NCBI RefSeq assembly: GCF_024662215.1
Contig: NZ_CP096115.1
Span: 2,554,935-2,618,934, forward strand
From: Methanoplanus endosymbiosus
GTDB lineage: Archaea; Halobacteriota; Methanomicrobia; Methanomicrobiales; Methanomicrobiaceae
DNA: 64,000 nt
Reading direction: 5' to 3'
Below, piece after piece: positions 437 through 52,105 of this stretch. The translations under genes and the position numbers were made by a program. Position 1 is the stretch's first letter. The number at the start of each line of letters is the position of its first letter. The notes below the pieces were generated by a model that was given only the letters and a program-made list of their open reading frames with translations, was not told the DNA's origin and did no database searches.

Positions 437-486
437 CCTTTCATCCTTCTGCAACTAACTGTACCACTATTTTCCGGGCTGATCTT

Positions 487-1857
487 TCATCTGACAAGGC
501 GGACGTAGTTGTCAATTCTTATCGCATCGCCCTGTGGGCCGTGGCCCTCCGGATATTCTGATGCGTCGCCCGTCTTTGGATCACTCCTCTGAGCTCCTGC
601 ACCATGCACATCCTGCCACTTACCGTCCAGATATCCCATTGCTCTGCCGAATGAGACATATGACGCATATCCACCTTTTCCATTCGATGTTTCATGGGTT
701 GTTGAGGACCAGAAGTACGGGTAGTCCGTCTCTCCTGCCTCGTTTGTAATCTCTGTGCATTCAAATACCGGGTCGATTGCAGCAGAGTCTGTTGTGTCGG
801 GTGAGCGTGAGTAGTCCACTATGCTCTGGAGCTCTTTTATATCCGGAAGCCTCCAGTCGCTGTATCCGAGATAGTTCTCAGCGTTTTTGGTCTGGACCCA
901 TGCAAGTGCCTCTTCCCAGTTCATGCCTGTGCCACTGTCTGACTGTGACCATGTAAGGCCGGTTGCACTGTCGGTTATGGTGCCGTTGCTATTGTCCGAG
1001 AAGTTATTAATTCCGTAATCGGGGTTGCCCCTTACACAGGTTACAAAGAATGTCTTTGCATTTCTGCCTGATGACACACAGGATGGTCCCGGCATAGTAA
1101 GGCCATAACCCTTTATTCTGCCATCAGCGAAATTGACCCCGAAGAGAAGGCTGTCTTCATATACATACAGTGTATCTGATGCGTACTGGGAGTCAATGAT
1201 ACGCTCACCTGCATCTGTATCTCCGTATGTGAAACTGAAGTAATCTGTATCAATAAATGGTGTCAGTTCTGAGGTGTCCGTTCCTTCAACTCCGCTGGGG
1301 TCAGTTCCGCTGAAGTCTATCAGTGAGTACTGCTCTTTGATTGTCGGAAGTCGCCAGTCGCTGTATCCTCCATAGCTTACCTGATTCAGTTCATCAGGAT
1401 AGGTTTTTGCTTCTTCAAGTGTGAGCTTGTCGTCCGCTGTTATGGAGCCGTCAACATTGTTGTCAGGAGATCTCTGCCATGTCAGTCCTGTATTTAAGTC
1501 ATAGACTGTAAGGCCGTCACTGCTGGTCTCGTAAGCCGGCTGATTGCCTGGATACTGAGAATCCTGGCCGTAGAATGCCTCTCCTTCAGCCGGACAGGTG
1601 ATCTCTTCAATGTTATTGAAGCATTTTGTCTGCCCTGTATCAGCTACAGTGTATGTGGTACTGCCTGTTGCAGCAGTGGTTTTTGTAACTGTGCTCTCAG
1701 AAGCAGAGTCTGATGTTTTTTCATCTCCGGAATCAGCCTCTTCTGCTGATGGTGATTCTGTCTGTCCTGAATCTGTCTGCGATATACATCCGGCAAAGAG
1801 AGCCATTATGGCCATTGCTACTATGATGAGTGCAATAATTCCCTTATGATATTTCAT
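487..1857 (-). CDS. DUF1566-type surface lipoprotein with two repeats
   Basis: A 456-residue protein. The N-terminus has a lysine, a hydrophobic stretch and a lipobox-like 'ALFAGC', so it is probably exported and lipid-anchored through the cysteine near residue 24. A Ser/Thr/Glu-rich linker follows to about residue 70. Two DUF1566-like modules follow, with the signature 'GYSDWRLPTIKE' near residue 160 and 'GYSDWRLPDIKE' near residue 331. DUF1566 domains are known from bacterial and archaeal surface proteins, including Legionella collagen-like protein, and are thought to bind ligands or sugars. The gene lies between two paralogous membrane-protein genes on the same strand, 50 and 131 bases away. 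No enzyme motif is visible, so an adhesive or envelope role is inference. Confidence 0.82.
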   Translation of the reverse strand: MKYHKGIIALIIVAMAIMALFAGCISQTDSGQTESPSAEEADSGDEKTSDSASESTVTKTTAATGSTTYTVADTGQTKCFNNIEEITCPAEGEAFYGQDSQYPGNQPAYETSSDGLTVYDLNTGLTWQRSPDNNVDGSITADDKLTLEEAKTYPDELNQVSYGGYSDWRLPTIKEQYSLIDFSGTDPSGVEGTDTSELTPFIDTDYFSFTYGDTDAGERIIDSQYASDTLYVYEDSLLFGVNFADGRIKGYGLTMPGPSCVSSGRNAKTFFVTCVRGNPDYGINNFSDNSNGTITDSATGLTWSQSDSGTGMNWEEALAWVQTKNAENYLGYSDWRLPDIKELQSIVDYSRSPDTTDSAAIDPVFECTEITNEAGETDYPYFWSSTTHETSNGKGGYASYVSFGRAMGYLDGKWQDVHGAGAQRSDPKTGDASEYPEGHGPQGDAIRIDNYVRLVR

Positions 1858-1988
1858 CTCTCTCTCCCCTCTGCATAGAGTTGTACTTTGGAGTAGTGAT
1901 AAGGAAATGCCGGAATCACTTCCTGATTATACCCAAATTATACCCAAATCTCCGTATGGGGTGATAAAAAAGAACGGCAAAAAAAGGA

Positions 1989-2429
1989 TTATTCAAGGCT
2001 GATTCTGATGAGGATTAAGAGGGCCGCAGTGGCACAGAGGTCCGGGATTATCTGGAATATTCCTACGTAGCCCGGAAATCCGCCAAGGAGGGTTACGATT
2101 ATCGGGTTTGATGTGACAGCATACATGCCAAGTGCGAAGATTACCGCCATCAGTCCAAGCGTGAATGAACTCTTTATTTTTCTGTATATTCCGGCGTAGA
2201 TGATAAAGAGCGGGATTATCAGGCCGAGGTTTATAAATGAGATCAGTGTTTTTATCTGGATATTTTCTTCCTTTATTGGTGGTTCCATGTTTCCGGTGTT
2301 TTGTGGTTGTTCCGGATTATCGTCTGCTTCATGATGGGGCATCTTAACAAATGAAGGAATGGTAAAACCTGCAAACAGAATTGCAATCACTGAGATGGTA
2401 ATTATTAAGATAATACTGTTATTTTTCAT
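1989..2429 (-). CDS. Small integral membrane protein coupled to an HTH regulator
   Basis: A 146-residue protein with a hydrophobic N-terminal segment (about residues 5-28), a charged linker rich in Glu, Asn and Pro (residues 30-55) and three further hydrophobic segments. It is paralogous to the gene at 1-436. The start ATG overlaps the stop of the upstream winged-helix gene by one base (TAATG), so the two are probably translationally coupled. The pairing of an ArsR-like regulator with a small membrane protein is common in archaea, and the membrane protein may sense or transmit a signal to the regulator; that role is inference. No catalytic motif is visible. Confidence 0.8.
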   Translation of the reverse strand: MKNNSIILIITISVIAILFAGFTIPSFVKMPHHEADDNPEQPQNTGNMEPPIKEENIQIKTLISFINLGLIIPLFIIYAGIYRKIKSSFTLGLMAVIFALGMYAVTSNPIIVTLLGGFPGYVGIFQIIPDLCATAALLILIRISLE

Positions 2430-48148: not shown

Positions 48149-48283
48149 TTATTAAAAATATGTCTTTTACAGTATTTCATCTTTTTATTTTGGTACATAA
48201 ATTTTCTTATTGTATCTATCATAAGGCCAGTTTTTTAATTGACAAAATACAATTATATGCAGTTAGTTTAACAAGGTGGATTT

Positions 48284-48466
48284 ATGTCGCAGAGGGCCGT
48301 TGATGCATTATTTCAGGCTCTGTTTCTTCTGACAGATATCAGATCTCTTTTCAGGAGAACAGCTCCTGATCACGAATTCGATGAGGAAGAGAAACAGAAA
48401 GCCGAAAAAACGATAGAAAAGCTGAAAAAACAGGTTTCAATTCTTGAGCAGGAGATCTTAAAATGA
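48284..48466 (+). CDS. Coiled-coil small protein coupled to pscS
   Basis: A 60-residue protein. An N-terminal helix 'AVDALFQALFLLTDIRSLFR' is followed by a highly charged coiled coil 'EEEKQKAEKTIEKLKKQVSI'. A strong ribosome site AAGGTGG lies just before its ATG. Its stop overlaps the ATG of pscS by four bases (ATGA). In class I methanogens the bridge protein SepCysE binds SepCysS and SepRS by a helical N-terminal domain; this protein could be a related short partner, which is inference. It is not recognised as any other family. Confidence 0.82.
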   Translation: MSQRAVDALFQALFLLTDIRSLFRRTAPDHEFDEEEKQKAEKTIEKLKKQVSILEQEILK

Positions 48467-49641
48467 AGTGCACAGGCAATATTGATACGCGGGAGGTTGA
48501 GGAGTTATATATCAATATAGACCCCATTCAGGCAGGTGGAAGGCTCACAAACGAAGCGCAGAAGGCCGTTATTGCCTACTCTGACGGCTATTCTGTATGT
48601 GACAACTGCTTAAAACCCTTCAGGCTTGATTATATCAGAAAGCCTCCTATTGCAGAGTTTCATGAGGACTGTGCGAAGTGGCTCAATATGGATCAGTTAA
48701 GGGTTGTTCCGGGGGCAAGGCGCGGGTTTCAGGCGGTTGCAAACTCGCTGGTGCAGAAAGGCGACCCTGTGATTCTTACAGCACTCTCCCATTATACTGA
48801 ATTTGTGTCGGTTGAGCAGTCCGGCGGTATCCCGTGTGAGATTCCGGCAGATGAGAACAATCATATCACAGGCGAAAATGCGGCAGAGAAGATTGAGGAG
48901 GTAATTGCAAAATTTGGTAAGACTCCCCCTCTGCTATATCTTGAGCATGTGGACTATCAGTACGGCAATATTCACGACATAAAGGGTGTTGTAAAGGCCG
49001 CACACCAGTATGACATTCCTGTCCTGCTGAATGGCGCGTACTCTGTCGGAATTATGCCCGTTGACGGTAAGGAACTCGGTGTTGATTTCATAGTCGGGTC
49101 AGGGCACAAGAGTATGGCAGCACCTGCACCGTCAGGTGTCCTTGCGGCAAATGAGGAGTATGCTGATGTAGTATTCCGGACAATCACTGCCAAAGGTGAT
49201 GTGACCGGCCGGACATTTGGCATAAAAGAAGTTGAGATGATGGGCTGCACCCTTATGGGCGTGACAGTCATGGGCCTTATAGCCTCTTTCCCGGAGGTGA
49301 AAAAGCGCGTCCTTGAGTGGGACCGTGAGATTGAGCAGAGCCGGATAATAACAGATGCACTGCTTTCGATAGAGGGCACAGTCTGCCAGAGCGACAGTCC
49401 AAGGGAGCATACCCTTACAAGAATCAACACCATAGAATCGTTTGACAAAGTAGCAAAGACCCATAAGAAGAGGGGCTACTTCTTATCCAGTGATCTGAAG
49501 AAGAGAGGCATTACAGGTGTAATTCCGGGTTCGACAAGGGTCTGGAAGTATAATACATATGGTCTTACCCGGAAACAGGCCGATCATGTGGCGTTATCGT
49601 TCAGAAAAATTGCAGAGGAGAATGATCTCTCAGTTGCCTGA
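48463..49641 (+). CDS. pscS: O-phospho-L-seryl-tRNA:Cys-tRNA synthase (SepCysS)
   Basis: A 392-residue PLP enzyme that turns Sep-tRNA(Cys) into Cys-tRNA(Cys). The PLP-binding Lys is in 'VDFIVGSGHKSMAAPAPSGV' near residue 210. Three cysteines known to be important in the family lie in the N-terminal part ('YSVCDNCLKPF' and 'EFHEDCAKWLN'), and 'VVPGARRGFQAVANSLVQKG' and 'TRVWKYNTYGLTRKQADHVA' are also typical. It is the second gene of a pair with the 60-residue protein. It converges with thiI and overlaps it by 12 bases. Confidence 0.95.
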   Translation: MKCTGNIDTREVEELYINIDPIQAGGRLTNEAQKAVIAYSDGYSVCDNCLKPFRLDYIRKPPIAEFHEDCAKWLNMDQLRVVPGARRGFQAVANSLVQKGDPVILTALSHYTEFVSVEQSGGIPCEIPADENNHITGENAAEKIEEVIAKFGKTPPLLYLEHVDYQYGNIHDIKGVVKAAHQYDIPVLLNGAYSVGIMPVDGKELGVDFIVGSGHKSMAAPAPSGVLAANEEYADVVFRTITAKGDVTGRTFGIKEVEMMGCTLMGVTVMGLIASFPEVKKRVLEWDREIEQSRIITDALLSIEGTVCQSDSPREHTLTRINTIESFDKVAKTHKKRGYFLSSDLKKRGITGVIPGSTRVWKYNTYGLTRKQADHVALSFRKIAEENDLSVA

Positions 49642-50820
49642 TTCGATAACCTCTCCATTTAATATTTTAATATAATCTAAGGTTTCCAGACATTTTCCGG
49701 TCAGCAATTCATAGTCAAGTTTCTCTTCTTCTGCTTTAAGGTCAGCAATCGTGGCTGATACTGCCGGATGCTTTGGAACGACTGTGCAGTCAAGATCGCC
49801 TGCAAATTCCCTGAATGTGCCGATCTTTCTTGCAAGGTCAACAATCTCTCCCTTGTCCCATGTTAAGAGCGGCTGAAGGAGCGGCAGTCCGGGTGGGATG
49901 ACCTCCTCTGTAACCGCCATATTGGCAAGTGTCTGTGAGGCAACCTGCCCGAGGTTGTTGCCCATGACAATGCCGGACATTCCCTTTCCTATAGCAATCT
50001 CTGCTGAGAGGTGCATCATAAACCTCTTGCATACAAGGCAGAGGTATCGTGGTGTAATCTTATCCAGAATTTCGGTGTAGAAATCCTCAAGATCTATGGA
50101 GTAAAGTCTGATCTTTCTGCCCGGAGACCACAGTGAGAGGTTTTTCATATTTTCAAGCACTGCATCTTCGGTGTCTTTACCAAAGTAGCCTTTACCCCTG
50201 AAGAATATGAACGAGGATGTGCACCCTCTTCTCATGACAAGCCATGCGGCAACCGGGGAGTCGATTCCGGCAGAGATGAGCGAGAGAACTTCTCCCTGTG
50301 TCCCCACCGGAAGTCCGCCCGGCCCTTTTGTTCTTCTGTCGTATATGAGGCCGCCTTCTGTTCTTGCCTCGACAAATATCTCGTAATCCGGATCTTTAAG
50401 GTTCACTGTCAGGCCGGGGACCATCTCCCAGATTCTGTCACCTGTTGATGCCCCAAGCTCCTGGCTTGTGAAGCCTTTCATATTGGATCTCTTTGGCCGT
50501 ACTGCAAAGCTCATTCCCGGTTTTAGTGATTTTGCAGCGATTTCGGCAGCTTTTTTCTCGATGATCTCCCTGTCAGATTCAGTGACTTCAGCAATGCAGG
50601 CATCAAGGATACCGAATATTTTTGTGACAATGCTGACTATTCCTTCCGGATTATCTCCATAGATTAGAATCCTGCCCCTGTGTCTCTCTATCCTGTGTTC
50701 GATTCCACCTGTATTCAGGGCGTTTTTTATATTATTGTCAAGTATTCTGAGGTAATGCCTCTGAACTGATTCACTTTTGAGGAATATCTCCCCATATCTG
50801 ATCATTACAGCTTTATTCAT
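49630..50820 (-). CDS. thiI: tRNA sulfurtransferase ThiI (methanogen type)
   Basis: A 396-residue enzyme for 4-thiouridine at U8 of tRNA. An N-terminal ferredoxin-like and THUMP domain (residues 1-165) precedes the PP-loop 'VLSLISAGIDSPVAAWLVMR' near residue 180. There is no C-terminal rhodanese domain; instead a CxxC pair is in 'RYLCLVCKRFM' near residues 261-264, as in other methanogen ThiI, where it takes part in persulfide sulfur transfer. Convergent overlap with pscS. The shared sulfur source makes this pairing plausible. Confidence 0.95.
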   Translation of the reverse strand: MNKAVMIRYGEIFLKSESVQRHYLRILDNNIKNALNTGGIEHRIERHRGRILIYGDNPEGIVSIVTKIFGILDACIAEVTESDREIIEKKAAEIAAKSLKPGMSFAVRPKRSNMKGFTSQELGASTGDRIWEMVPGLTVNLKDPDYEIFVEARTEGGLIYDRRTKGPGGLPVGTQGEVLSLISAGIDSPVAAWLVMRRGCTSSFIFFRGKGYFGKDTEDAVLENMKNLSLWSPGRKIRLYSIDLEDFYTEILDKITPRYLCLVCKRFMMHLSAEIAIGKGMSGIVMGNNLGQVASQTLANMAVTEEVIPPGLPLLQPLLTWDKGEIVDLARKIGTFREFAGDLDCTVVPKHPAVSATIADLKAEEEKLDYELLTGKCLETLDYIKILNGEVIESGN

Positions 50821-50999
50821 TTTGCACGCTGTACTTATGTTTCAGGTAATTTAATGATTCCCGGCAGAGTGTCGCCCTGCTTAAACCGGCAGTTGTTCAC
50901 AGTAGCTTTTGGACTGGTTTATCTGTCAGTCTGCCTCTTCAGAAACATGTGGAAATAGAAATAACTTTTATGATATGAATCAGAAATAGTGAAGTAATT

Positions 51000-51632
51000 A
51001 TGGCAGGGAAAAAGAAGGGTAAAGACAAAAGTGAGCCGCAGTCAGTTCTCTATTATTTTTATACACAGGAGAGATGGGACAACTGGATTCTTACTTTAAA
51101 GGAGATGGATTTTGAAGGGGATCCTGAGAGCGAGGAGATGCCTGAAGGGCTTGCATCACTTGACAACTTCACAAAGGACCTCAATGTATCTGCGTTAAAA
51201 ATAATCAAGCTGGTCGATAACGGGAGTTATAACCAGGAGATGGCCCTTGCAAAGTTAAATGAGGTTGAGGAGATCATTATGGCAGATCTGCCGGAGGATG
51301 AACTTACAGATATTCTCGGCGGTGTTCAGATGCGCTTCCTTGTTCTCTTCATGTCATGCAAGAATTATATCAGAGGTGAGATCGGAGAAGGCGAAATTAA
51401 GAACCTTGTAAAGGAGGGGCGTGCCATATCTGATGAAGATCCTGAGGCTGCACTTAAAATTGCCGCTGATATTGGTGCAAAAGTTCTTGACGGCGGCTCA
51501 TGCTGCGGCAAGTATCTCCGTGGTGACTTTGAAAACCCAACCATGTTCGACGACTGGCTTATTGAGGTTGATGAGATGGGCGAGTCTTTAAAGACACTCA
51601 AAAACTTTGATGAGCAGTTCGGAGAAGCATAA
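51000..51632 (+). CDS. DUF2150 family protein
   Basis: A 210-residue acidic cytoplasmic protein with the DUF2150 pattern: 'SVLYYFYTQERWDNWILTLK' near residue 17, 'LDNFTKDLNVSALKIIKLVD', and 'GSCCGKYLRGDFENPTMFDD' near residue 164 with a Cys pair. The family is confined mainly to methanogens and relatives, with unknown function. An AT-rich promoter 'ataacttttatgatatg' precedes it. A cysteine-cluster gene follows 20 bases downstream. Confidence 0.85.
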   Translation: MAGKKKGKDKSEPQSVLYYFYTQERWDNWILTLKEMDFEGDPESEEMPEGLASLDNFTKDLNVSALKIIKLVDNGSYNQEMALAKLNEVEEIIMADLPEDELTDILGGVQMRFLVLFMSCKNYIRGEIGEGEIKNLVKEGRAISDEDPEAALKIAADIGAKVLDGGSCCGKYLRGDFENPTMFDDWLIEVDEMGESLKTLKNFDEQFGEA

Positions 51633-51652
51633 TATATATCAAATAATTTTTT

Positions 51653-52105
51653 ATGATTGCACGAAAGGCCCGTTTCAGAAGGGCCAAAAAACTTCAGAAT
51701 ATTGTCGGTTACAGAGTGCCTGAATCTGTATTCAGCGGCCCTTTTCTTGAGGCTGTTACATCCTGTATGAATTTCCAGAGGATGGACAAAAGGCTGAGAG
51801 AACAGCTGTTAAATATCTTCAGGGATTTTATGGACTGCAACTGCAAAGGCAGCCCTTTATGCGGATGTCCGGAGAAGAAGTTTGCAAAGACAGTTCTTGA
51901 GCTGAGAATGACCGGACTTGACCATCGCCAGATCGGTGATGTTTTGCAGGATGAGTACGGCATTGATCTCTATCCGGCTGACATTCTCGGATTTTTAGAA
52001 GAGTCTGTGCATGTGCTTGAGGCAATTAAGTCAGTTGCTGACATCGGGAAGAAGACTGAACTTTCGGCTCTGTCAGCACAATGTATTGCCGGTATTGAGC
52101 ATTAG
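51653..52105 (+). CDS. Cys-cluster protein similar to DUF5814-type helicase-associated domains
   Basis: A 150-residue protein with a basic N-terminus ('MIARKARFRRAKKLQNIVGY'), a four-Cys cluster 'CNCKGSPLCGCPEKKFAKTV' near residues 62-72 and a helical C-terminal part 'GLDHRQIGDVLQDEYGIDLY' and 'PADILGFLEESVHVLEAI'. I recall similar sequence beside or inside DEAD-box helicases of methanogens (DUF5814). Here it is a free protein. It is probably co-transcribed with the DUF2150 gene, so a common pathway is likely but unknown. Confidence 0.72.
   Translation: MIARKARFRRAKKLQNIVGYRVPESVFSGPFLEAVTSCMNFQRMDKRLREQLLNIFRDFMDCNCKGSPLCGCPEKKFAKTVLELRMTGLDHRQIGDVLQDEYGIDLYPADILGFLEESVHVLEAIKSVADIGKKTELSALSAQCIAGIEH

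Follow-up and report, generated by a model that had tools for sequence, protein, structure and literature searches.

What a 60-codon gene, joined by an ATGA overlap to the gene of SepCysS (pscS), contributes to the tRNA-dependent synthesis of cysteine is the question raised by a locus of Methanoplanus endosymbiosus, located within a 64,000-nucleotide stretch (the window; contig NZ_CP096115.1, positions 2,554,935 to 2,618,934) of a single-contig genome of 3.16 Mb. The initial annotation of this window had described the small gene, with its ribosome site and its overlap with pscS, and the open reading frames (ORFs) listed in Table 1 bear this out. We show here that the gene is a well-supported further example of SepCysSn, a family named in 2017 (Mukai et al., 2017; PMC5424206), and not a new kind of gene. 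Its product is homologous to the N-terminal domain (NTD) of SepCysE and is likely to dock, as a co-translated subunit, onto the dimer of SepCysS.

The small gene is a real protein-coding gene under purifying selection: nonsynonymous substitutions occur at about 0.12 times the synonymous rate (median of 31 pairs; within the genus about 0.09), and codon position 3 is its most variable position. The purine-rich AAGGTGG is found directly 5' of its ATG, and GGTGAT occupies that place in many relatives. The downstream gene was identified as SepCysS by TIGR02539 (396.6 bits against a cut-off of 365.25), its nearest solved relatives being the SepCysS of Methanocaldococcus jannaschii and of Archaeoglobus fulgidus. 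Searches of Pfam and NCBIfam with the 60-residue protein matched no family.

Conservation beside pscS in related Methanomicrobiales, on which the proposal of the initial annotation depended, was found throughout the order. Using the 60-residue protein as the query, homologues at E<=1 were detected in 188 of 199 genomes and in all 38 sampled genera, and SepCysS was matched in 187 of the 199. Comparison of both tables places the two genes together in 186 genomes and neither gene in 10, with SepCysS only in one (G117) and a small-protein match only in two (G044 and G185); the double absences are mostly incomplete genomes, as expected of linked genes. As described for SepCysSn, the small gene is a separate gene right before SepCysS, which it overlaps in the window, and in all 30 loci read in detail the two genes overlap or lie at most three bases apart. 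Counted from where the stop codon of the small gene ends, SepCysS starts at -4 to +3 (-4 in 20 loci, -1 in six, 0 in one, +2 in two and +3 in one).

The protein had initially been read as a hydrophobic helix followed by a charged coiled coil. A two-helix hairpin (residues 3-26 and 34-59) is the better description, and is predicted by the AlphaFold2 model built from the window and locus sequences with a mean predicted local distance difference test (pLDDT) score of 95.3. Homology to the SepCysS-binding domain of SepCysE is indicated by profile, profile-profile and Foldseek results, which agree with each other. In searches of the PDB, MJ1481 SepCysE (3wks_C) was the top match of the single protein (E 0.058), and a profile of 21 mostly split sequences (A1) reached SepCysE 3wkr_C at E 0.0014. 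Alignment with hhalign against the SepCysE NTD, represented by sequences from Methanocaldococcus and Methanothermococcus, scored 27.96, above the maximum of 200 column shuffles (17.8) and also above that of 200 shuffles keeping the hydrophobic pattern (24.0). The idea of a minimal SepCysE-like partner, put forward at the outset, is supported by the match in both sequence and fold. The first five Foldseek ranks were all SepCysE chains (probability 1.00), the next unrelated chain scoring 0.93. Structural alignment superposed 59 residues on residues 42-100 of SepCysE (MJ1481; PDB 3WKR, 3WKS, 5X6B and 5X6C) at 1.9 A and 24% identity; the two-helix hairpin is thus common to both proteins, and A12, L16 and P28 of SepCysSn are common to all aligned SepCysE sequences.

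In many genomes SepCysS itself carries a homologous domain as an N-terminal fusion; within the genus, a second copy of SepCysS does so (L081). Fused frames of 445-466 residues from the ATG occur phylum-wide, in keeping with the published fused form SepCysSN, and they support the earlier suggestion of a free-standing N-terminal domain of SepCysS. Both forms were named by Mukai et al. (2017; PMC5424206) and were followed up in 2022 (PMC8762117). They have no SepRS-binding helix and no C-terminal domain (CTD), as here, and no difference was found between the published proteins and ours. The main idea of the initial annotation was therefore largely right and had already been published. The Methanomicrobiales are unnamed in the main text of PMC5424206. 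In the two papers found to use the name, SepCysSn is described by sequence only, and no experiment on it was seen in them.

The resemblance to SepCysE, a protein known from class I methanogens and certain archaea that use Sec, raises the question of whether SepCysSn might also serve as a bridge. The three parts of M. jannaschii SepCysE have different partners: a dimer of the NTD (35-101) binds the SepCysS dimer, with the two-fold axes aligned, SepRS is bound by the N-helix (1-24), and tRNA by the Toprim-like CTD (111-213) (PMC5688128). Deletion of the N-helix abolished SepRS binding, and without the CTD the SepCysS complex no longer had a measurable affinity for tRNA (PMC5688128). SepCysSn has neither part: the alignment begins at SepCysE residue 42 with nothing before the hairpin, and the 60-residue protein ends after helix 2. 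A search of the genome with full-length SepCysE gave no match, but SepCysSn too escaped that search. The genome does encode SepRS (659 bits), and no CysRS was found in it above the cut-off; Cys-tRNA(Cys) is therefore probably made by the SepRS/SepCysS pathway alone. Of the three SepRS loops that grip the N-helix, loops 1 and 3 keep, by alignment, few of their residues in this genome (ILDEF to about STQEG and ALVSN to about SSLTG, respectively), and loop 2 is partly retained.

With its SepCysS-binding domain in common with the bridge protein and SepRS encoded in the same genome, SepCysSn could be imagined as a minimal bridge that links SepCysS to SepRS and channels Sep-tRNA via contacts unlike those of SepCysE. 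We regard this as improbable, given that in M. jannaschii each of the two missing parts is required for its binding (PMC5688128) and that the SepRS loops are mostly changed; the channelling of Sep-tRNA put forward initially is accordingly not supported. A docking subunit is favored over a bridge since SepCysSn retains the SepCysS-binding part only and SepRS loops 1 and 3 are mostly lost in sequence. As such a subunit, SepCysSn would bind the SepCysS homodimer in a 2:2 arrangement with aligned two-fold axes, like the NTD dimer of SepCysE, and the ratio of the two proteins would be held near 1:1 by the gene overlap (ATGA) or by fusion. It may stabilize or shape SepCysS for Sep-tRNA(Cys), and would neither tether it to SepRS nor carry tRNA.

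A tRNA-facing or regulatory accessory is a second alternative, in which SepCysSn bound to SepCysS would alter the discrimination between tRNA(Cys) and tRNA(Sec) or the delivery of sulfur, with the neighbouring ThiI acting in the same process. The basic residues R4, R20, R24 and K46 are highly conserved in split forms, and in many relatives ThiI follows SepCysS on the other strand. This proximity is, however, lost in several loci that retain the SepCysSn-SepCysS pair, and the Pfam and NCBIfam searches turned up no known tRNA-binding domain, which makes such a role unlikely as well. That the gene encodes an unrelated operon coiled coil, whose match to SepCysE is a chance likeness of helical hairpins, is very improbable despite the weak single-sequence match and the frequency of such folds, as SepCysE comes first in both the sequence and the Foldseek lists with scores above all shuffles, the same domain is fused to SepCysS, and the partner and the match together would be hard to obtain by chance.

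Several points nevertheless weigh against SepCysSn as a docking subunit homologous to the SepCysE NTD. The PDB match to SepCysE was weaker with a wider profile of split and fused forms (0.061 vs 0.0014), for which reason the shuffled controls were relied on as well. Structural Z values were tied at about 8 between SepCysE and unrelated chains; two-helix hairpins being common, Z alone is not discriminating, and equal weight was given to sequence and context evidence. Two arginines, R20 and R24, do not vary among the aligned split and fused forms, and their counterparts in SepCysE are D63 and Y67, so the chemistry of the interface may differ. The contact between SepCysSn and SepCysS is itself inferred from homology, from fusion and from the structures of the SepCysE NTD with SepCysS (PMC5688128), and a natural fusion folded as a proxy for the complex reached a moderate pLDDT of 68.9. 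Many SepCysS genes of the phylum also have no detectable partner, so that SepCysS in general can be active without the hairpin.

Table 1. Features of the SepCysSn-SepCysS locus (window positions) and of related loci (positions within each locus)
Feature	Position	Strand	Remarks
Probable ribosome-binding site AAGGTGG of the small gene	48273..48279	+	Sequence and matching positions in relatives
SepCysSn gene	48284..48466	+	ATG start, 60 residues; two-helix hairpin protein, homologous to the SepCysS-binding NTD of SepCysE
ATGA stop/start overlap of the small gene and SepCysS	48463..48466	+	Translational coupling inferred
SepCysS gene	48463..49641	+	ATG at 48463; SVCDNC, GCT and SGHKSM motifs retained
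ThiI	49630..50820	-	Convergent neighbour; 3' ends overlap SepCysS by 12 bases; outside the SepCysSn-SepCysS pair
SepCysSn relative, example head-to-head pair (L138)	1987-2193	+	
SepCysS, example head-to-head pair (L138)	445-1680	-	
SepCysSn-like gene near gyrB-like ORF (L155)	1627-1833	-	
SepCysSn-like gene near gyrB-like ORF (L156)	1574-1777	-	

Beside the pair, the order ThiI, DUF2150 and DUF5814 (49630-52105 in the window) is retained in many genomes of the Methanomicrobiales. Across the phylum, a wider profile (A6) gave a match in 135 of 295 genomes. Among the phylum results listed, SepCysS with a fused or split hairpin scored about 380-438 bits against TIGR02539, and the SepCysS set above about 490 bits was mostly without a hairpin. 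A hidden hairpin gene was looked for in the 1-kb stretches upstream of 20 high-scoring SepCysS genes; a clear profile match was obtained in L136 only, and this led to a head-to-head arrangement. In all 10 genomes examined (L137-L146; families f8 and f30), a SepCysS of a second clade (about 495-515 bits) is accompanied by a distant SepCysSn relative in head-to-head orientation on the other strand, the open frames being about 305-385 bases apart. In two further genomes (family f31), a SepCysSn-like gene adjoins an ORF that resembles gyrB by eye, away from SepCysS; these sequences were in profile A6, one having entered at E 0.047. Pooled with the two f31 sequences, the divergent relatives scored 35.8 by hhalign against the SepCysSn profile (shuffled maximum 15.6) and 30.1 against the SepCysE NTD (shuffled maximum 17.3).

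It can be speculated, quite tentatively, that SepCysS has in the SepCysE-NTD hairpin an ancient and mobile accessory subunit, which is encoded in at least four ways: overlapping and upstream of SepCysS, fused to its N-terminus, divergent and head-to-head with a second clade of SepCysS, or unlinked and close to a gyrB-like ORF. Full SepCysE might then be an elaboration of this module, the core role of which would be on SepCysS and not in bridging to SepRS.

Two observations concern SepCysS genes elsewhere. In four loci (L039, L041, L043 and L044), an ORF resembling, by eye, a pyridoxal phosphate-dependent Cys/Met sulfhydrylase comes after the fused SepCysS paralogue. In two others (L157 and L158), SepCysS residue 105 is an in-frame TAG, where two relatives of the same genus have Gln (VGOEG vs VAQEG/MAQEG); a pyrrolysine site or a codon reassignment is possible.

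A co-translated partner of 60 residues, in a genome apparently without CysRS, makes the need of SepCysS for the hairpin in class II methanogens, and the purpose that it would serve, a testable matter. SepCysSn also bears on whether the bridge of the transsulfursome arose from a simpler subunit of SepCysS.
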